Source: Microcaldota archaeon
GTDB lineage: Archaea; Micrarchaeota; Micrarchaeia; Micrarchaeales; CABMGC01
Reading direction: 5' to 3'
DNA: 64,000 bases
Assembly (NCBI GenBank): GCA_021796225.1
Contig: JAJYOL010000001.1
Coordinates: 67,471-131,470 of the forward strand
A program made the translations under genes and the position numbers. The notes beneath the pieces are model-generated. The model had not been told where the DNA came from. It made no database searches and was given only the letters and a program-made list of their open reading frames with translations. Below are positions 33,224 through 46,408 of the stretch, in pieces; positions within the stretch are counted from its first letter, which is position 1; each line of letters opens with the position of its first letter.

Positions 33224-34231
33224 TCACGGAAGAGGATATGTGGAATAGAATGAAACGTTCGTAGCCACGCCGTCATTGTTGTTTCCGCTGTAATCATTCG
33301 CATTTCCGTTCAGCGGCCACCAGCCTATGAGGTTCTGCAGTCTCAACGGCGTTCCGTCTATTCCTTCCGAATAAAGCCCCGTAAGTTCCTGTGTTGAAAG
33401 CGGCGTATTGTAAAGCTGTACGTTTGAAATCATTCCATTCAACGGATATATGTCGCCGTTAGGAAATATCGTCGCACCGAGCGAGAATGAATTCGTTGTC
33501 TGGAAGGAGCGCGGAGAAAGCACTACCGTGGAAAACGCGCTGTTGTTTTCATACACCGTCGCAGTGCCGTTGCTCTGGTTATACGTTGCAGCTATGAAAA
33601 TCCATTTGTTTTCTATGAAGGAATAATTCGTCGCGGATTTCCATTTAACATAAGAACCGTTGATCCATAGAACTCCGCACGCCCCGTTGTTACCTCCGTA
33701 TCCGTACAAGGCTATGCCCGAGCTCGGGCTCGGATTTGTACCCATTATGCCCTGGCACGGCGCGCCGTCCGGTCCATACCAATACACCCATGCCGTTATC
33801 GTAAATCCTGGAGAGCTGTATCCCAGATAATTCGGATTGGAAAATTCATTTCCTATGTTGAGGTTTGGCAACAATATGTATTTCGGATATGATACTCCTC
33901 CGTATCCTTTTCCATTGCCGCTGCTTCCACCGTTCAACTCACTCATGGAAAGGGTTCCGAATGAAGATGCATACTCGGGAAGCGAGCCGCTGCATTCTCC
34001 CTGCAGGCCTACATCCGTCGGATTGTATGGCCCGAGAGGCCTTATCACCTGGCATGCACCAGGCTGCGTCCTTACATTGAATGAAAACATATTAAGACTG
34101 AAAAGCACGGCGAGCACTATCGCAATGACGAGTATTGCCCATGCGTAGGTCATGAGGTATTCCATTGCGCCTTGCGATTCCACCGGCGCTTTCGATTTGC
34201 GCTTGTGCGCCCTTGCTGTTCTTTTAGGCAT
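33224..34231 (-). CDS. LamG-like surface protein with class III/pilin-like N-terminus (copy C, divergent)
   Basis: ESQGAMEYLMTYAWAILVIAIVLAVLFSLNMF ... ISNVQLYNTPLSTQELTGLYSEGIDG...GWWPLNGNANDYSGNNNDGV. Confidence 0.8.
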   Translation of the reverse strand: MPKRTARAHKRKSKAPVESQGAMEYLMTYAWAILVIAIVLAVLFSLNMFSFNVRTQPGACQVIRPLGPYNPTDVGLQGECSGSLPEYASSFGTLSMSELNGGSSGNGKGYGGVSYPKYILLPNLNIGNEFSNPNYLGYSSPGFTITAWVYWYGPDGAPCQGIMGTNPSPSSGIALYGYGGNNGACGVLWINGSYVKWKSATNYSFIENKWIFIAATYNQSNGTATVYENNSAFSTVVLSPRSFQTTNSFSLGATIFPNGDIYPLNGMISNVQLYNTPLSTQELTGLYSEGIDGTPLRLQNLIGWWPLNGNANDYSGNNNDGVATNVSFYSTYPLP

Positions 34232-35146: not shown

Positions 35147-35536
35147 ATGAGGGCTAGTAGGTTGATTTGGCCGATTACACTTGTACTCTCATTCTTTGCA
35201 ACAGTCTTGTTTGCGCCTACTTATTTCTTTGCTCCCTCTTGCCAATCCTCATATTTTGAACATGCTTTTTCTGGAGCCTGTGGAGTTAATGGGTATCTAT
35301 ATGGTATATCCGCCATAATTCTACTTGTTTCTGCGTTCTTTGTAGTCAACAACATTAGCGCAGGACGTTCTGACTTTAAAACTTGGAGTGTTGGTCTATT
35401 GGGCGTAGCTTTTGTAGTACTTGCAGTGGTATTTTGGTTCGGCGGAGACGCAGCAGCTTTAGTATTGGTTCTACCAGCAGCATACGCCGCTTACAGATTT
35501 AGAAGGAGAACTGGAATATTTGTATACAGAGGATAA
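35147..35536 (+). CDS. Four-TM hypothetical membrane protein
   Basis: MRASRLIWPITLVLSFFATVLF... with several hydrophobic segments. Confidence 0.55.
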   Translation: MRASRLIWPITLVLSFFATVLFAPTYFFAPSCQSSYFEHAFSGACGVNGYLYGISAIILLVSAFFVVNNISAGRSDFKTWSVGLLGVAFVVLAVVFWFGGDAAALVLVLPAAYAAYRFRRRTGIFVYRG

Positions 35537-35540
35537 TAAA

Positions 35541-36488
35541 ATGGCAAACGGCACGAAATTACTTCTGTACATTGCCTGCATTGTAATAGTCATATTACTT
35601 CTCTACATTATTGTGATCAAGCCGCACAATATAACATCTTCTAGCACTACAACGATTAACTATTCGAGCACACAGAATCAGAGCATTAATACCATTCAAC
35701 CAGTATATAACCCAACAAGCTACAAAGGTCAAGCTCCTGTTATATTTACCAATACAACAATATTAACTGGCGATATAGTAACTACTGGTAACATAACCAT
35801 CTTATTACGTGGAGTGACTCTTAATACAGTAGGTTACAGTCTCATATCTGGCGGAACGCTTAATAATCAAGGCACAATAATTTCAAGTTTAGCAGGCAAC
35901 GGTGGATCAAGTACAAATCAAAATGGAGGCAATATGCCATACTCATACGGGGGCAGCGGTGGCGGTGGTTGGGCTTATGGTTGTGGCAATGCTGCCGGAG
36001 GTAACAATGAAGGTATCGGCGGTAATACACAAGTGGCTGGGGGTAAAGGTGCAACCGGTTTCAATGCTGGAGGGGGAGGTGGCGCCTCTACAAATCAATC
36101 TACCTTGACTAACCTACAGGTTCAAACAATGTACAATAATGGCATGGCCCAATATCTTGAAGGGGCAGGCGGCGGAGCAGCAACTAATTGTGACACCTTA
36201 GCAAACGGTGGGAGCGGCTCTTTTGGGGTGTATATACAAGCCACCAATGTTATAGCAGGGAATATTAACACGGTTGGGCAATCCGGCAACGGCGGTAATG
36301 AAGAAGCCGGTGGTGGCGGAGGAGGTGGTGCAATCTTTATAAGCTATGGTAACGGGGGCTATCAGGCAGGATTCTATAATACAACTGGTGGCGGAGGAGG
36401 AACTGGGCTTTATGGTAAAGGAGGGGCAGGCGGTAGCGGGGCCGTTCTAGTTTATAATTATGGCAGGTCACCACCAATTTCCACATAG
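35541..36488 (+). CDS. Secreted glycine-rich (polyglycine-helix/adhesin-like) protein
   Basis: MANGTKLLLYIACIVIVILLLYIIVI signal anchor, then GGSGGGGWAYGCGNAAGG..., GGGGGGGAIF, GGGGGTGLYGKGGAGGSGAVLVY. Confidence 0.65.
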   Translation: MANGTKLLLYIACIVIVILLLYIIVIKPHNITSSSTTTINYSSTQNQSINTIQPVYNPTSYKGQAPVIFTNTTILTGDIVTTGNITILLRGVTLNTVGYSLISGGTLNNQGTIISSLAGNGGSSTNQNGGNMPYSYGGSGGGGWAYGCGNAAGGNNEGIGGNTQVAGGKGATGFNAGGGGGASTNQSTLTNLQVQTMYNNGMAQYLEGAGGGAATNCDTLANGGSGSFGVYIQATNVIAGNINTVGQSGNGGNEEAGGGGGGGAIFISYGNGGYQAGFYNTTGGGGGTGLYGKGGAGGSGAVLVYNYGRSPPIST

Positions 36489-37785: not shown

Positions 37786-39006
37786 ATGGAAGAGGCAGAT
37801 CTTGTAGTAAAAAGAACCAATGCGGTTTACCAGAACATGCAGAATCCATACCTTTTGAAATATTACTACAAATCGAAGATTCTGGACCGCATTCAGGGCA
37901 ATGACGTGGCAGGTTCCTCTCCTCCTGACATATTCGTAGGCAGGTTCGGCTACCCGCACGTTTACATAGGCCCGCTTGTTCCTCCTGAAATCGGGGATAC
38001 GTCGATAATGGGCTCTCCGGAGCAATGGGTCGGAATGAGCATACCGAAGATAGTCGAGATGCGGTCCACGCTTGTACGGGGGATGTATCGCACGAAAGTC
38101 ACCAATGCGGACAACGGCAGGATAGAGGAAATGATAAAGGAGCTCGCGCTTGCGGACAAATCCGGCACCGTAGAGGAAAAGCTTTCCAGGAAGCCCACGC
38201 TGGGAATGCATCTTGACGAAAACAGCCAGCCGTACGGCCCGAGCGCGATAATGCGCGACATGACTCTTGAGAACGTGAAGACCAATAAAAACATAGAGAA
38301 GGCATACGGCGATACCGCCCTTTCCGCTACGAATGCCATAGTCGAACTGTACGACAAGGGGACTCCCGTTTCAAAAATACAGAAATCGCTCTCTGCGGGA
38401 ATACTCGGGGTGTCAAAGCGGAGGAAATTCGTTCCCACCCGCTGGAGCATAACGGCTGTTGACGATACACTCTCAAAGCACAAGCTGGAAACCGTAAAGG
38501 AGAACCAGCCGATAGATTCCATACGATTGTATCTTGACACTGCGCTTGACAACAGATGGGCCATACTCATGGTACCCGGGAGCTGGGAATACGAGCTTGT
38601 CGAAGCCTGGTATCCGAATACCACATGGAACCGTGAAGGTGCAAACATAGCAATATACTCTTCATACGAGCCATTTGACGGCAGAAGCAAGTATGCCGAG
38701 ATAGGCGGATGCTACTATGCCGCAAGGCTCGCTTCCTCCGAATTGCTTGACAAGGCGCAGGGCCAGGCGAAAGTCGTCATCTTAAGGGAAGCACACCCAG
38801 GCTACATAATGCCTGTCGGAGTCTGGAACGTGAGGGAGCACGTGCGCGCCGCGTTGAGCAAGGAACCGATAATGATGAACACCATGAAAGATGCACTTAA
38901 TGCGATATCCTCATTCATGGATATTTCCATACCTGCATGGATAAAGAACAGCGCATTGTTGCGGAATCTGCTGTATCGGAAGACTCTTTCCACTACAACG
39001 TTATGA
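37786..39006 (+). CDS. Nre family DNA repair protein
   Basis: PPDIFVGRFGYPHVYIGPLVPP, ALSATNAIVELYDKG, KFVPTRWSITAVDDTLSK. Confidence 0.85.
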   Translation: MEEADLVVKRTNAVYQNMQNPYLLKYYYKSKILDRIQGNDVAGSSPPDIFVGRFGYPHVYIGPLVPPEIGDTSIMGSPEQWVGMSIPKIVEMRSTLVRGMYRTKVTNADNGRIEEMIKELALADKSGTVEEKLSRKPTLGMHLDENSQPYGPSAIMRDMTLENVKTNKNIEKAYGDTALSATNAIVELYDKGTPVSKIQKSLSAGILGVSKRRKFVPTRWSITAVDDTLSKHKLETVKENQPIDSIRLYLDTALDNRWAILMVPGSWEYELVEAWYPNTTWNREGANIAIYSSYEPFDGRSKYAEIGGCYYAARLASSELLDKAQGQAKVVILREAHPGYIMPVGVWNVREHVRAALSKEPIMMNTMKDALNAISSFMDISIPAWIKNSALLRNLLYRKTLSTTTL

Positions 39007-41212
39007 CATTTTCCCTTCCGCCAGCTGCCTTGAATGTTTTCGTGTTTTTCTTCTTCTCCCCGAGCACCTTGACAACGTACTGCTTGTTAAGCAAGGTGTT
39101 TTTCACAATTATTCCCCCTTGCTCGTCCGTTGTTCCTTCCCAAACGGTCTCTCCAAGCCTTAAAATCCTCAATCTGACCGTTACCGGCTCATTATTGCTA
39201 TTTTTTATCAAAACCGCCATGTTTTCTATTCTTCTGTCTCGTTTTACTGACGGTTTGTCATAATGGGTGTTATTTTTAGGATAATATGCCTTCGCAGAAG
39301 CAAATACTGTGTTGTGTTGAACCCTGCTACCATATTCAGTACTCAAATAGCTTAGTGCGCAAGTTCCCTGTTTGAGATTTTTAAGTTTCCATATGACCTC
39401 TTTATCCTCAGACGTTTTGAATGCTAAGTCATTATACGCGTATTTCGCAGTGTCCGAGCTTTGCCTGAAATACATTTTAATCTGGCAGAGTCTTCTCAAT
39501 CCTATGCTTATATCTGTCACGCTATGCGTAATCAACATCAAACCTATCCCTTTTTTCCTAAAGTCCTGTATCCTCTGCTTAAGGTCTTTAGTCGCGGCAG
39601 ATATCTCTTCGTTTCCGAAAACCAATTGGGCTTCCTCTATACATATGAGCATTCTAAGTTTGTCATTTCCTTTTTCATCAAATTCATCTGCAAATCCATA
39701 AAACTGGTTTAAGATCAATGCGTAAAAGAACGGTTTCATATTATTGCTTACTTTTGAAAGATTGAATACGACTCCTGTAGTCAAAAGGTCCCTAAAGTTT
39801 ATACCTTCCTTATATGCGAATTGGGGTTTGGAGAGCATAAGTCTCAGGAGTTGCAGGGCCGCCATTATGTTTTCTCCGTGTTTGGTATACGTTACGCCGA
39901 CATTGGTCCTTTTTGCATGCTGTTCTATGACTGCGAATTCTACATAACTATAAATTTCATCAGGGTCTACTTTTTCACCTTTTTCATATACTTTTTGAAA
40001 TGCTGAAAGAAGGCTTTTTTCTATGGCGTTTGTATACGGGCCTGCGTTCGAAGCCGAAGACAACAACATAGCAAGATTTTCATAAAATTTCGAAATTCCT
40101 ATGTCCGCATCGCACTTGAAGAAATTTATATTTGCGTCCGTCTCGTAAAGATCTATTACCTGCATCCCATGTTCTCTGCCAAACTCATCCCATTCCGTAG
40201 TGGGCGAGATTATGATACTATTTGACCCTTCTTTTTCATTTAATTCGTCTATCAATCTCATTGCGGTTGCTGTCTTTCCTGTGCCAGGCAGGCCTGTTAT
40301 TATACTGCCTAAATTGAATGCATCTGCACCCGTATTCAACAACATCCCGCTTTTTCCTGCTCCCGATTCCAAATATTCCCCTATATTGATACTGCCGGAA
40401 CTTTTAGGGCAAGTTGTTTCTATCGTATTTTCAATGTCTGTACTACTAGAAACCGTTATCATACATGTCGCATCAGACAATGACATTGGAAATGCATCCG
40501 CATGCTCTGCTTCTTTGTAGAGCTTTTCCATATTGTCTATCCATATCTCTTTTTCACGAATGGCAAATATTTTTGATTTTATATATTCGCGTATATGGGA
40601 ATTGGGAATTTCGCCGGAAATAATTATATTAACAGCAAACGAAATCCCGTTATTTGCCATAGCTTCGTCAAGGGAGCTTAATAAAAGTGCAAAATTTTTC
40701 CTTTCATCCGATCCGTAATACAAATCTCGTTGCACAGATTCCGAAAATCCTGTAATTCTGTTTCCATGGTTTCTGTTTATTCGTATATCCATTTTGCTTA
40801 TCCTGTCCTCTATATCTTCCTTAAATCGCTTAACATCTTTTATATTTTTTGGGACGAACAAAAAAAATATTTGGAGGTCTGAACCCCTAAATATTTTATA
40901 CATGTCACGAAACAAATCTGTATTTTCTAAATACGTATCTTCATGTTGCACTTTTTGAGGATACTTTGCAAAACTGCTTATACATATTCCTTTTCCTTTA
41001 ATTAGACTAAATCCACTATAAGGGATTAAATTTAATCCAGGTAAACTGCCGTTCAGCTTTAAATCAACGTTGTTGGCTTCTGTTATCAGCAGCGTATTCC
41101 CTCTTTTAAGATCGTGACAAAGAAAAAACGACGTGCCAAGAATCGTGTCCATGAACACTTTTTTATCTATTTTTGACGGCACGCTTCCAAAATTAAAGAC
41201 GTTAAATTCCAA
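38993..41212 (-). CDS. VirB4/HerA-like ATPase with C-terminal beta-sandwich-like domain
   Basis: Walker A GLPGTGKTATAM, Walker B LRMLICIEEAQLVFG, THSVTDISIGLRRL; C-term VRLRILRLGETVWEGTTDEQGGIIVKNTLLNKQYVVKV. Confidence 0.78.
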   Translation of the reverse strand: MEFNVFNFGSVPSKIDKKVFMDTILGTSFFLCHDLKRGNTLLITEANNVDLKLNGSLPGLNLIPYSGFSLIKGKGICISSFAKYPQKVQHEDTYLENTDLFRDMYKIFRGSDLQIFFLFVPKNIKDVKRFKEDIEDRISKMDIRINRNHGNRITGFSESVQRDLYYGSDERKNFALLLSSLDEAMANNGISFAVNIIISGEIPNSHIREYIKSKIFAIREKEIWIDNMEKLYKEAEHADAFPMSLSDATCMITVSSSTDIENTIETTCPKSSGSINIGEYLESGAGKSGMLLNTGADAFNLGSIITGLPGTGKTATAMRLIDELNEKEGSNSIIISPTTEWDEFGREHGMQVIDLYETDANINFFKCDADIGISKFYENLAMLLSSASNAGPYTNAIEKSLLSAFQKVYEKGEKVDPDEIYSYVEFAVIEQHAKRTNVGVTYTKHGENIMAALQLLRLMLSKPQFAYKEGINFRDLLTTGVVFNLSKVSNNMKPFFYALILNQFYGFADEFDEKGNDKLRMLICIEEAQLVFGNEEISAATKDLKQRIQDFRKKGIGLMLITHSVTDISIGLRRLCQIKMYFRQSSDTAKYAYNDLAFKTSEDKEVIWKLKNLKQGTCALSYLSTEYGSRVQHNTVFASAKAYYPKNNTHYDKPSVKRDRRIENMAVLIKNSNNEPVTVRLRILRLGETVWEGTTDEQGGIIVKNTLLNKQYVVKVLGEKKKNTKTFKAAGGRENVITL

Positions 41213-41220
41213 ATCGTCAC

Positions 41221-41499
41221 CTATATGGCCAAATAGAACACCGTAAATGCAAACGCGTTGATTATTGCGGCAAATAATATCAGTTTTAACCTGTTTTGTC
41301 CGCCAATTCCTATTGTTTTTTCAATGGCAAACAATAAAACCAAATCCGATAATACTGAAAGAAACACAAAATAAGGAAAGCGTATCCCGATTGCGGCAAT
41401 TATCAGCATAATTCCCGGCAGCAGGCCCAGACTGGAAATTAGGAAAACAATTTTTACCGAACCGTTTATAGTTTTTTCATATCCTGTATCTTTATTCAA
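41221..41499 (-). CDS. Small membrane protein, probable TTG start overlapping upstream stop (TTGA)
   Basis: LNKDTGYEKTINGSVKIVFLISSLGLLPGIMLIIAAIGIRFPYFVFLSVLSDLVLLFAIEK...; about 3 TM. Confidence 0.55.
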   Translation of the reverse strand: MNKDTGYEKTINGSVKIVFLISSLGLLPGIMLIIAAIGIRFPYFVFLSVLSDLVLLFAIEKTIGIGGQNRLKLILFAAIINAFAFTVFYLAI

Positions 41500-41684
41500 A
41501 TAATCACCAGAACAAGTGTCGCGGAGATAAACAACATTATGGCATATACCTGCCATAAAATGGCGTTAATCCTAAGAAAACGCCCCTTTTGCATACTTTC
41601 TATAATCAATGCGTCTGCAAAACTGCTTGTTAATACGATGCTAAGTTTAAACAGCACGCTTCTGCTAATTATTAAATAATTCAT
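41496..41684 (-). CDS. 62-aa two-TM membrane protein (T4SS module)
   Basis: MNYLIISRSVLFKLSIVLTSSFADALIIESMQKGRFLRINAILWQVYAIMLFISATLVLVII. Confidence 0.5.
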   Translation of the reverse strand: MNYLIISRSVLFKLSIVLTSSFADALIIESMQKGRFLRINAILWQVYAIMLFISATLVLVII

Positions 41685-42279
41685 TTCCAATCCCTTGCAC
41701 GTTTGCATTGTCGTTAAACAGAAAACCAAGCAAATATCCTGTCGAAGGATTAAATTTTTTCATGCGTTCTAAAAACCGATCTCTTTCTGTTACAAAGAGC
41801 TTAATTTCCGATGTTCTATTAGTTGACAAGCGTTTTTCCAACTTATCAATATTTTGCAGATCGGAATAATGAAACACATTAAATGCCTTATTCTTAATGT
41901 CATAATTCGAATGTAATTTTATTCCGCGTATTAGGGCATTTTCATAAATTATCCGCTTAAACAATGCCTCTTTGATGTCATCGTCATCGGATATCCATCC
42001 GTTCCACTGTATCTCTTCTTCTTTAGCATATTTTATGCAAAGAATATTTGTTCTAACTACCTGGGGATACTCCTCACTACCGTACAATTCTTCATGTGCT
42101 ACTGGAAATCGCTTTTTAACCGATAAATACTGCATTTTGTCGAATTTTTGATTATGGCTTTCAAAATTATCAGTACTCGTATCAATGAAAACGCGTTCAT
42201 CAAAAAATTTAACCGACATCGCAAGATACATTATGCCGATCCCTATCACTATCGGCAGAAACTGGTACAGATATGACAA
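41665..42279 (-). CDS. N-terminally membrane-anchored hypothetical protein (T4SS module)
   Basis: MSYLYQFLPIVIGIGIMYLAMSVKFF anchor; co-directional, tightly packed. Confidence 0.6.
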   Translation of the reverse strand: MSYLYQFLPIVIGIGIMYLAMSVKFFDERVFIDTSTDNFESHNQKFDKMQYLSVKKRFPVAHEELYGSEEYPQVVRTNILCIKYAKEEEIQWNGWISDDDDIKEALFKRIIYENALIRGIKLHSNYDIKNKAFNVFHYSDLQNIDKLEKRLSTNRTSEIKLFVTERDRFLERMKKFNPSTGYLLGFLFNDNANVQGIGNELFNN

Positions 42280-42284
42280 AGAAT

Positions 42285-42965
42285 TTAACGTAATCTCACC
42301 AAGCGAAATTTTTCTCCGTTCACAGCAATTTTTTTATATCCCAAATTCGGAAGAAAATCAAGTGCATTGTTCACTTCTGGTTCGGAAATCCCTAAATCCG
42401 TGCAGATATCCTTGACACTCGAACCGGTTGTATACTTCAGTACTATAAAGTTTGCCACGGTTCTATTCAATTTATTCATAATCCCCAAGATGTCCCTATT
42501 CAGCTTGTCATTTTGATAAAGCAAATTAGATATCCTTTTTGCAAGTATTATATCGGATGACTTTTCCATCGTTTCTGAGTCAAAACTCTTAAATCGGCGT
42601 TCCAAATCCTCTCCGTATAATATGTCTATTAAATATGGGAAAATATCCTTCACTTCTATTTCGTATTCCGTATCCAAAACGGCGACTATGCTGATAAATT
42701 TAAGAATGCCTTCCTTTGTAAAATAACGTGGCGTCATCGACGAATGGATTTCCACAATTATCTTATTCTTTTCAAACAAAACGTAATATTTGCAATTTTC
42801 CGTCGAACTGGGCAATGAATATTTCAACCTACTCCCATGTGCAATACATACATTTCCCGGATACATATCCATCTTTTCTTTAACGGATTCCAAATCGCTT
42901 ATTAAATAAGCCTTTACAGGAATTTTACTTATCAAATATAGTTTGCTATTCATTTGTGTTACCAA
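42285..42965 (-). CDS. Hypothetical protein with C-terminal winged-HTH (T4SS module)
   Basis: IMNKLNRTVANFIVLKYTTGSSVKDICTDLGISEPEVNNALDFLPNLGYKKI. Confidence 0.6.
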   Translation of the reverse strand: MVTQMNSKLYLISKIPVKAYLISDLESVKEKMDMYPGNVCIAHGSRLKYSLPSSTENCKYYVLFEKNKIIVEIHSSMTPRYFTKEGILKFISIVAVLDTEYEIEVKDIFPYLIDILYGEDLERRFKSFDSETMEKSSDIILAKRISNLLYQNDKLNRDILGIMNKLNRTVANFIVLKYTTGSSVKDICTDLGISEPEVNNALDFLPNLGYKKIAVNGEKFRLVRLR

Positions 42966-44067
42966 TTTCTCTTATCACGCTTGCAAATGCATCTGCTATA
43001 TCCTCGTCTTTTATATGCAAGTCCTGAAATGCAAGCAGGATTTTTCTCCTATTCACTCCTGAAATAATCAAAAAGTTCATTAGTTTGTCCAATCGCACAC
43101 TTTTTCTATTGCGTATCTCCGAAATTAATGCTGATGTTTTACCCGAATCATTACATAATCCCCTAATGACGTTTTCCAATTTTTCCATACTTACGTCTAG
43201 TCCCATATCATCTCCCATAACTATTTGTGCCGTATGTCTTACATTCACGCCATATACTCTGACCTTGAATACTGTCCTCTCTCGCGTGTTAAACAAATTT
43301 ATAATTTGACAATTTCCCCGTTCAAGATTTTGTATGTCTCTTATCCGTTCAAACGCGATAGAGTAATTTTTTGTCAATACTTCCAACGATTCGGAATCCG
43401 TGGTCTTGAATACAATCAAAGTCGCAATATTTGATAGAAATTGCGGGTCCACATCTCCTATCATTTGGGATGCTATTATGATACCGGTTCTATATTTTCT
43501 TCCTTCCCTTATTAACGACTCTAAAATTCTTTTTCCTTTTACCACTTTCCATGCTTCGTCTAATATTACAAAAACCGGCAAACCTTTGTTTATTCCCCTT
43601 CTCTTTATTTCGTCAGATATGAATTTCAAAATTTCAAGTCCTTCTCTTACTTTTTGATTTTCATTTGATTTACTTAAGTCAAAATAAGAAAGTGACGGTT
43701 TATCCTCACAGATTAATTTATGTATATTTTTCGCTTCAGGCTTCCCTGCCGGTTGTCTATTAGAAATTTCTGCATATTCCCCTGTAAAATCTATCACTAT
43801 GACTATACTGTCCAACGTCGTTTCTAATCTTAACATAAGACTTCTTGTCAAATGCGTTTTTCCGCTCCCGGTCATTCCCGTTATAAATATATGTGGATTA
43901 ACAAGTTCTTTGAAATTAATGAAAAAAGGCACGTTCCATGGTTTGGCACGGCCAATATACACTCCATTCTCAGATGCAGCGACCATTGACCCTGCAGATG
44001 GGCTGTTCACGTTCGGCATTATCATGGTATTGCATGCTTGTTTCATTGTGTACACTTTTTTTGCCAT
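42946..44067 (-). CDS. VirB4-C/HerA-like motor ATPase (T4SS module)
   Basis: IFITGMTGSGKTHLTRSLMLRLE, VFVILDEAWKVVKGKRILESLIREGRKYRTGIIIASQMIGDVD. Confidence 0.78.
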   Translation of the reverse strand: MAKKVYTMKQACNTMIMPNVNSPSAGSMVAASENGVYIGRAKPWNVPFFINFKELVNPHIFITGMTGSGKTHLTRSLMLRLETTLDSIVIVIDFTGEYAEISNRQPAGKPEAKNIHKLICEDKPSLSYFDLSKSNENQKVREGLEILKFISDEIKRRGINKGLPVFVILDEAWKVVKGKRILESLIREGRKYRTGIIIASQMIGDVDPQFLSNIATLIVFKTTDSESLEVLTKNYSIAFERIRDIQNLERGNCQIINLFNTRERTVFKVRVYGVNVRHTAQIVMGDDMGLDVSMEKLENVIRGLCNDSGKTSALISEIRNRKSVRLDKLMNFLIISGVNRRKILLAFQDLHIKDEDIADAFASVIREIGNTNE

Positions 44068-44075
44068 GCTACTTC

Positions 44076-44798
44076 CTATATTGCTTCTAAAAGGGCTTCA
44101 CCGGATAACATCCTGTATTCCATACCTGTAACTACTGAAAAAGAAGCTGCTATTCTTTCCAAAGCATGTCTTACTTCCCGTTCGGCGTCTATTCTATCCA
44201 TTGAATTTGAAAATGTTGTTAACAACGTTTCAATTTCATAAGCTCTACCGCCAGTTTTTATGGAATTTATCTCGTCATTCATCAATGAAATTTGTTTCTG
44301 GATTTCATTCATTTTTCGATATTCCTTATTTTCGAACCGTTCGAGCAATATCTCTTTCATACCTTTTTTTGTTTCTAATGTCTGTACAAAGCGATTTTTG
44401 TCTATTTCAACAACCTTTATTGTGAATTCGAACTGTCCTTTCACATCTTCCATAAACTTGATAATCGCCTTGCTATCAATTTCTACATCTGCATTTTTTC
44501 TTTCCATCTTTGCTATAGCCATTGCGTTATACACGCGTCCTTTCTTTTTGCTGACTGCCAGTAAATCCGAGCTTAATGAATAGTCATTTCGTATCTCGAT
44601 CACTTTGGATTTTTTTAACAGGAAATTGTTGACGATATGACCAGAATTGTAATACACAGCGGACAAAACCAGCATGATAATGGAAATGAAGAAAACAGCC
44701 AAACTGTGAAAAATCATGCTTGCGAACAAAGTTAGGCCTGACAGGGCATAAAACGCATAAGAAAAGATCCTGTCATTTAACCGTTCTGATTCCATCAT
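44076..44798 (-). CDS. Two-TM protein, candidate VirB3/VirB4-N-terminal-like subunit
   Basis: Two N-terminal TMs then soluble domain (KNADVEIDSKAIIKFMEDVKGQFEFTIKVVEIDKNRFVQTL...AEREVRHALERIAASFSVVTGMEYRMLSGEALLEAI) directly upstream of motor ATPase. Confidence 0.5.
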   Translation of the reverse strand: MMESERLNDRIFSYAFYALSGLTLFASMIFHSLAVFFISIIMLVLSAVYYNSGHIVNNFLLKKSKVIEIRNDYSLSSDLLAVSKKKGRVYNAMAIAKMERKNADVEIDSKAIIKFMEDVKGQFEFTIKVVEIDKNRFVQTLETKKGMKEILLERFENKEYRKMNEIQKQISLMNDEINSIKTGGRAYEIETLLTTFSNSMDRIDAEREVRHALERIAASFSVVTGMEYRMLSGEALLEAI

Positions 44799-45826
44799 AT
44801 CACGTTAAATTTTCCAAAATTTGCCTCGGATCCCAGAACCCTTGCGAATTCTCTTACCGATATGCCTGTAATTATAAGGCTGAATGCAGGCAGAATGAAC
44901 GTGTAGACGATAAAATATCCTATTTCATAAAGAATAGCGCTTAACAATTTGTTTACGTTTTGATATACTTGCTGTACTGCAGTTATTGTCATTGTCGAAA
45001 CTGTACCTACTATGGAATTTCCGACCAGGCTATTATATGCAAAAACCTGTCCTTCAACCTGATTTGCACTACTTCCTACTTCAGTAAGATTTCCCGGACT
45101 AATGTTGGCCTTATACGAATTTGCTATATACGCGTTGAATACGTAAGAAAGGGGATATACTGCATACAAACCTATTGCTAATGCTATAAAGAATCCTCCG
45201 AGACGCCTTGTGGGGTAAAATGTCCTCAAAACTATCCCGGTCGGAAAGATTACCGTCATTGCACTGGCCGATATGAAAAGAATCAGTGCCCCCTGAACGA
45301 CCGCTCCTATAATGACTGCATTGAGCATTTTTATAATATACTGGATTTCTGCCATTACTGGGGATATTATTGGATTAAACGAGATTGTCAATACTGCCAA
45401 ATTGATTTTGACGGCTGCTATGGCACCTAAAATTCCATTCAATGAATATAATCCCACGAGGAATTCAGTTGCAGATGAAAGAATTGAATTGTGATAAACT
45501 CCTGAAAGCGTGTATCCATTGCCTATCATATAATTATATGCAAGACATATGGCAACGTTTTGTGCTACAGATCCCGGGCAATTCATTGTTATGTTATTTC
45601 CGCTGGCAGAATTTATTATCGGAGTAATAAAACCGGCCGGCGACACCGAGAGAAATACAAAGCCGACCAGTGCACTATTTACCACGGCCTGCCATATTTC
45701 ATTTTTTCCAAAATCTTTGAATCGTTTTTCATTGATTGCATATCCGAGTCCAAGCAAAATCCCTCCCGACGCTATCATTATACCTATGACATATATCGCT
45801 ATGGTAAATCCCTGTTCCACTGGCAT
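44795..45826 (-). CDS. Polytopic membrane protein, VirB6/TrbL/CedA-like
   Basis: 343 aa with multiple TM segments; FILPAFSLIITGISVREFARVLGSEANFGKF C-term; adjacent to VirB2-like gene. Confidence 0.62.
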   Translation of the reverse strand: MPVEQGFTIAIYVIGIMIASGGILLGLGYAINEKRFKDFGKNEIWQAVVNSALVGFVFLSVSPAGFITPIINSASGNNITMNCPGSVAQNVAICLAYNYMIGNGYTLSGVYHNSILSSATEFLVGLYSLNGILGAIAAVKINLAVLTISFNPIISPVMAEIQYIIKMLNAVIIGAVVQGALILFISASAMTVIFPTGIVLRTFYPTRRLGGFFIALAIGLYAVYPLSYVFNAYIANSYKANISPGNLTEVGSSANQVEGQVFAYNSLVGNSIVGTVSTMTITAVQQVYQNVNKLLSAILYEIGYFIVYTFILPAFSLIITGISVREFARVLGSEANFGKFNVI

Positions 45827-45835
45827 GTTGGCATC

Positions 45836-46213
45836 TCACAAGGTATTTGCAGTAAGGTTGGTCAATAACGTTGAAGAAGCAATGGCAAATCCGTTTGAAG
45901 TAACGGAAAGCACTGCGACCACTATCGCGCCTATTATCATATCTATTGCCATGGTGTGCAGAGTTGCACGCTTATACGAAGGAAAAAGTTGGCCTATTGC
46001 ATAGAAAATGCCTGCGGTTATAAACAATATGGCGCTTAGCAACGGTCCGACGTGCATCAACAACTGTTCGATGTAACTAAGTGTGCCTATCAAATTCAAC
46101 AAGACAAACATGTTGCGAAACAATGACACTGGCGTTGCAATAATCGGTATCAGAATCGGCACTGCTATTCTGAAATCCCTCCCGTTATTTTGTATACTCA
46201 TATACTCACTCAT
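45836..46213 (-). CDS. VirB2/TrbC-like pilin (CedA1/TedC-like)
   Basis: LLMHVGPLLSAILFITAGIFYAIGQLFPSYKRATLHTMAIDMIIGAIVVAVLSVTSNGFAIASS: helical hairpin with basic loop. Confidence 0.65.
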   Translation of the reverse strand: MSEYMSIQNNGRDFRIAVPILIPIIATPVSLFRNMFVLLNLIGTLSYIEQLLMHVGPLLSAILFITAGIFYAIGQLFPSYKRATLHTMAIDMIIGAIVVAVLSVTSNGFAIASSTLLTNLTANTL

Positions 46214-46408
46214 GTAGATAAGTATACAATATAATACTACAATATATATTTAAGCTTTGCTATTTTGCAGGTTTTGTTAAATAAGTAACTTTTGTTTAAA
46301 AAGTCCAAAAATCTGTTAAAAGGATCTTTTATGGTTTATCCGCATTTCATCATGGCGTAAAACCTTTAATGATGCTCATTTGTTTCTGATGCCTTTAAAA
46401 ACAGAAAA

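Follow-up and report, generated by a model that had tools for sequence, protein, structure and literature searches.

A T4SS-like gene module with a divided VirB4 in Micrarchaeota

Nine tightly packed genes in a Micrarchaeota genome raise the question of which machine they encode, and whether it moves DNA. Nucleotide synthesis is lacking in Micrarchaeota (PMC5864196), and members of the group live in contact with hosts and bear thin filaments (PMC11329633). For Mia14, type IV pili were described without mention of VirB (PMC5498576), while the Ced and Ted systems are known from Thermoproteota (PMC9905601, PMC11868833). A partial literature search returned no description of a VirB2/VirB4 machine in Micrarchaeota, which is weak evidence of novelty. 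A first-pass annotation had proposed a compact T4SS or Ced/Ted-like DNA-transfer module. Profiles were built from the proteins of the window, the 64-kb stretch of DNA analysed here as a whole, and were used to collect approximately 40 gene neighbourhoods, which belong to two families within the order, as well as 51 named contigs; these two sets are not independent, because they partly overlap.

Layout and inheritance of the locus

The nine open reading frames lie between 38993 and 46213 of the window, all on the minus strand, and direct checking of coordinates, strand, and lengths agreed with the first-pass annotation throughout. Designated by the lengths of their products, the genes are separated by 9 nt (125/343), 8 nt (240/373), 5 nt (226/204), and 8 nt (111/739), or overlap by 4 nt (343/240), 20 nt (373/226), 65 nt (204/77), and 61 nt (77/111). 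The underlying assembly comprises 789 kb and is 83% complete. Among named relatives, Candidatus Micrarchaeota MAGs are the closest, in line with the earlier assignment to a DPANN archaeon. A BRE/TATA-like archaeal sequence, GCAAAGCTTAAATATAT (46244..46260, minus strand), was read by eye approximately 30–47 nt before the pilin ATG and may serve as the promoter.

The GC content per kb was lower within the module (0.35–0.41) than in its surroundings (0.42–0.52), and amounted to approximately 0.37 overall against a background of 0.47. The AT-richness noted earlier was thus found here, but it is no general property of the module: in relatives, the difference between module and upstream flank averaged −1.5% (39 loci), with module GC ranging from 0.25 to 0.58. 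The marked AT bias is specific to this genome, and its use as a mark of foreign origin of the system was rejected.

Upstream, the module is flanked by tRNA-Ser, and downstream by a convergent NreA repair gene. Recent integration at tRNA-Ser was considered and rejected, since neither an att-like repeat nor a duplicated end of the adjacent tRNA-Ser was found, and NreA adjoins the module in both families. Two further proteins of the window were recorded: a membrane-anchored one (33224-34231), from a class III signal-peptide-like family that turns up close to the module in 20 loci, and one that is rich in glycine and looks secreted (35520-36488).

Homologues elsewhere were detected for eight of the nine module proteins, and 87 of 90 Micrarchaeota loci shared the order pilin, 343-aa, 240-aa, and 373-aa protein, the gaps having medians of ≤4 nt; the gene set is therefore not a chance arrangement. 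The 226-aa gene was also present in 74 of these loci, and the 739-aa ATPase was encoded in the same stretch in 48. Phylum-wide, 240-aa-type proteins were found in 263 of 297 Micrarchaeota genomes, encoded by separate short genes, and the pilin profile matched in 213 of 302, part of both sets of matches stemming from other T4SS-like loci.

In a tree of the 343-aa protein, the two families were separated by one change, with modest support of the deep branch (48/90). This split, together with NreA as convergent neighbour in both families, argues for a resident gene set. No relatives of the pilin or the 343-aa protein were detected in the IMG/VR viral collection at the sensitivity used. The preferred reading is that of a resident and not of a mobile module; its inheritance looks vertical, and most of the sampled Micrarchaeota relatives carry it at a fixed chromosomal place. 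The module of the Micrarchaeota contigs is also present in three contigs titled Candidatus Marsarchaeota (L091, L102, and L115), whose labels are probably wrong.

Pilin, membrane protein, and ATPases

The 125-aa protein (45836..46213) consists of a hydrophobic N-terminal segment followed by a hairpin of two helices joined by a basic loop, as judged from hydropathy. Its homologues matched PF18895 (T4SS_pilin) in 40 of 49 cases (best 4e-7) and PF04956 (TrbC/VirB2) in 38 of 49, which confirms its annotation as a VirB2-type pilin.

The 343-aa protein (44795..45826) is polytopic, with approximately seven TM segments and two invariant Cys residues in a loop. Its earlier identification with VirB6/CedA found no support: searches against Pfam and NCBIfam, the latter also as a check for a CedA homologue, gave no match, the comparison with PDB by sequence returned noise only, the hhalign probability of its profile against 12 VirB6 proteins was below 1%, and Foldseek searches of PDB and BFVD with an AlphaFold model (pLDDT 83) yielded no significant fold match. 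Because neither sequence nor profile nor fold pointed to a recognisable relative with a known function, the protein is treated as a candidate VirB6/CedA-type channel, based on its topology and its position directly after the pilin. A kinship between pilin and 343-aa protein, as reported for CedA1 and CedA, was not seen by hhalign; one weak match of a paralogue (4e-4) was obtained.

Paralogues of the 343-aa protein were encountered in a second T4SS-like locus of the same genome (L037:7249-19515, L037 being G000:C9; minus strand). It comprises six tandem copies of 384–504 aa, two genes of the 240-aa type (VirB4-N-domain-like), a 505-aa CedD/VirB4-class ATPase with DEAW, a 98-aa separate copy of the motor C-terminal domain, and a paralogue of the 226-aa protein (L037:7249-7986); no pilin match was found at this locus. 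Tandem arrays of six paralogues also occur in other Micrarchaeota (L129:7184-14568, L130:2074-9522, L131:4076-11725, and L132:1975-9477), and those of L129 to L131 adjoin secreted or lipoprotein-like proteins of 1200–1400 aa.

The 240-aa protein (44076..44798) had no match by sequence. Its AlphaFold (AF2) model (pLDDT 89) was compared to PDB with Foldseek, and the 13 best matches were all R388 TrwK/VirB4 entries (prob 0.99–1.00; TM-scores of 0.34–0.43 over the query), the next best match reaching 0.33. The length of the alignment fits the soluble part. The protein thus consists of a two-helix membrane hairpin and a VirB4 N-terminal domain, encoded by a gene of its own. Of the earlier designation as VirB3/VirB4-N-like, the VirB4 part is borne out by fold, while a VirB3-like nature of the N-terminal hairpin can only be presumed.

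The adjacent 373-aa protein (42946..44067) contains Walker A (GMTGSGKT) and Walker B (LDEAWK) motifs and a helical C-terminal domain. CedB was the best NCBIfam model (1e-17), and the Pfam matches were AAA_10 (3e-13) and DUF87 (3e-13). The Walker B motif DEAWK compares with DEFWK of R388 TrwK, and DEAW was present in 79 of 84 homologues. This confirmed the annotation as a motor ATPase of the VirB4/CedB class, although the score against the CedB equivalog NF041017, the top-scoring model, was 63.9 bits at a cut-off of 700. VirB4 is therefore represented here by an N-domain, recognised by fold, and a motor, recognised by family and DEAWK, on two genes. In single-protein hhalign comparisons with R388 and pNOB8 proteins, the match came from the motor only. 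Relatives were also examined for a fused form of the 240-aa and 373-aa proteins, which would directly prove that the two make one VirB4; no intact case was found, and two long frames were interrupted by stops.

The second ATPase (739 aa, 38993..41212, TTG start) belongs to the FtsK-HerA superfamily, with the Walker B sequence IEEAQ and no TM segment. Its best named NCBIfam model was CedD (1e-7; 31 bits at a cut-off of 600 for the equivalog NF053655), and a TrwB domain was found in 4 of 21 homologues. Judged by sequence, it appears to be neither clearly a VirB4 nor a VirD4. Of its annotation as a second VirB4/HerA ATPase, the FtsK-HerA class and the association with the module hold, but not clearly the VirB4 assignment. 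Homologues of the 739-aa ATPase and strong homologues of the 343-aa protein were both present in 69 of 98 genomes, both absent in 18, and discordant in 5 and 6; the resulting P value (Fisher, 1.5e-10) is only indicative, because the genomes are related and incomplete. Among genomes at least 90% complete, 36 had both, 11 neither, and 2 and 1 were discordant. In relatives, the 739-aa gene is often located elsewhere, in several genomes far from the module while still co-occurring with it. Both genes were missing in members of 14 genera, and since eight of these also include members with both genes, repeated co-loss is probable. Residues ~650–739 form a beta-rich-looking C-terminal extension, for which 2 of 21 homologues matched CarboxypepD_reg weakly; this is unusual on a cytoplasmic motor.

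The remaining genes differ in their conservation. The 226-aa protein (42285..42965), whose gene overlaps that of the motor, is soluble with a C-terminal helix-turn-helix (weak sigma70_r4 match) and was kept in 35 of 41 loci. The 204-aa protein (41665..42279), with one N-terminal TM segment and a soluble domain according to hydropathy, is patchy (homologues in 22 of 41 loci). The 77-aa two-TM protein (41496..41729; 2 of 41 loci) is lineage-specific, the 111-aa three-TM protein (41221..41556; 1 of 41) was found at this locus only, and both are local and hardly conserved.

Proposed function and alternatives

Pilin family, VirB4 N-domain fold, and motor family together make it very likely that the module is a T4SS-derived machine. 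It is best read as a chromosomal, relaxase-less, Ced/Ted-like system with a physically split VirB4. In the proposed assembly, the VirB2-type pilin would form a pilus and the 343-aa protein a membrane channel, beneath which the 240-aa protein, by its hairpin and VirB4 N-domain, would anchor the separate 373-aa motor, so that the two proteins would jointly make one VirB4. The 739-aa ATPase may act as a second motor or as a coupling protein.

The relaxase families PF03432 and PF08751 were detected in none of 61 and none of 41 relatives, respectively, which extends the earlier observation that no relaxase is encoded here. ComEC was likewise found in none of 61 relatives. Because no DNA-nicking enzyme, which conjugation needs, was seen, the machine probably moves DNA among these archaea or from their hosts, perhaps by import. 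Uptake appears the likeliest task, since neither the tested relaxase families nor mobile relatives were found, and Ced and Ted provide the nearest working precedent of a domesticated relaxase-less T4SS that is reported to import DNA (PMC9905601, PMC11868833). We assign a probability of approximately 0.5 to a DNA-transfer machine with import as the likelier direction. DNA would enter via cell-cell contact, that of kin serving recombination and that of the host being used as DNA and as nucleotides. A more specific version, cross-species uptake of host DNA for nucleotides and new genes beside a second machine with a six-paralogue channel, seems unlikely. The minimal DNA-import or transfer device proposed earlier thus holds in outline for pilin, VirB4 N-domain, and motor, with VirB6/CedA not confirmed and with import and the partner, host or kin, being presumptive.

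The same parts could serve other tasks. A T4SS for host interaction, delivering proteins to the archaeal host or swapping proteins or metabolites with it, would resemble those proposed for Patescibacteria and nanohaloarchaea: epibiotic Patescibacteria carry a near-universal, chromosomal, relaxase-less T4SS (PMC12102498), VirB4-type ATPases of nanohaloarchaea were proposed to deliver effectors (PMC10266531), and Micrarchaeota filaments and host contact were observed by cryo-tomography (PMC11329633). We regard this as doubtful, as a DNA importer is the nearest of the named models to the motor and the operon contains no recognisable effector or chaperone gene. Donation of DNA to kin or host by chromosomal conjugation or export is quite unlikely; the core parts are common to conjugation machines, but the absence of PF03432 and PF08751 from the relatives, the lack of viral-collection relatives, and the fixed locus speak against it.

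VirB4 and VirB6 are required to build conjugative pili, and ARM-1 cells bear thin filaments; the motors might hence drive extension and retraction of a pilus used for attachment only. The second large, co-occurring ATPase, however, exceeds the needs of a pilus and resembles translocases, so that we consider the chance of this slim. Repair ATPases of the HerA-NurA type, placed near unrelated membrane genes, are highly improbable. Both ATPases match the HerA domain and a repair gene, NreA, lies next door, but NurA was found in none of 31 Micrarchaeota relatives while four archaeal control genomes were positive, and the motor shares its operon with pilin and VirB4 N-domain in the 87 conserved loci. 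A grouping with HerA-NurA repair, named beforehand as the outcome that would speak against a transfer machine, was thus not observed, and the DEAWK motif of the 373-aa motor, similar to DEFWK of TrwK, likewise points towards VirB4. A 582-aa HerA/CedD-like ATPase with the Walker B motif DEAE is encoded on another contig (L038:8809-10557, G000:C15); its C-terminal domain is possibly nuclease-like, NurA itself being undetected in the relatives.

If DNA transfer is the correct reading, two DPANN puzzles become testable, namely the nucleotide supply of symbionts without synthesis and gene exchange with hosts. The separation of the anchored VirB4 N-domain from its motor, phylum-wide in the sample, is a natural dissection of ATPase docking.

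Comparison with known systems

The Ced system of Sulfolobales (CedA, CedA1, CedA2, CedB, CedD, and CedE) shares with the module a VirB2-type pilin, a polytopic membrane protein, two HerA/VirB4-class ATPases, a chromosomal location, and the lack of a relaxase (PMC11868833, PMC9905601). In contrast to Ced, the Micrarchaeota module is one compact operon with separate N-domain and motor, whereas CedB and CedD each combine part of the N-domain with a motor. As the CedB and CedD cut-offs were not reached, we do not claim membership in Ced; being below these equivalog cut-offs, the module is a new variant.

In Ted of Thermoproteales (TedC, TedA, and TedB), the gene immediately after the pilin gene likewise encodes a polytopic protein, and a VirB4-class ATPase lies nearby; pilin and polytopic gene stand in this order in the 87 of 90 loci. 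Ted, however, has a single full-length VirB4 (TedB), while the N-domain here has a short gene of its own in all of the phylum sample, and the HerA, ParA, and Rad50 genes of Ted loci were not seen. With R388/MPF-T (VirB2, VirB3, VirB4, and VirB6), the module has in common the pilin, the fold of the VirB4 N-terminal domain, and the D-E-x-W-K Walker B motif; it differs in its two-piece VirB4 and in having no outer-membrane core and no relaxase found.

The T4SS of Patescibacteria is similarly near-universal, chromosomal, mostly relaxase-less, equipped with VirB2-type pilins, and present in ultrasmall epibionts (PMC12102498), but it has a bacterial FATA-type VirB4 and a different gene set. The parallel with this other large group of ultrasmall epibionts suggests convergent retention of a relaxase-less T4SS.
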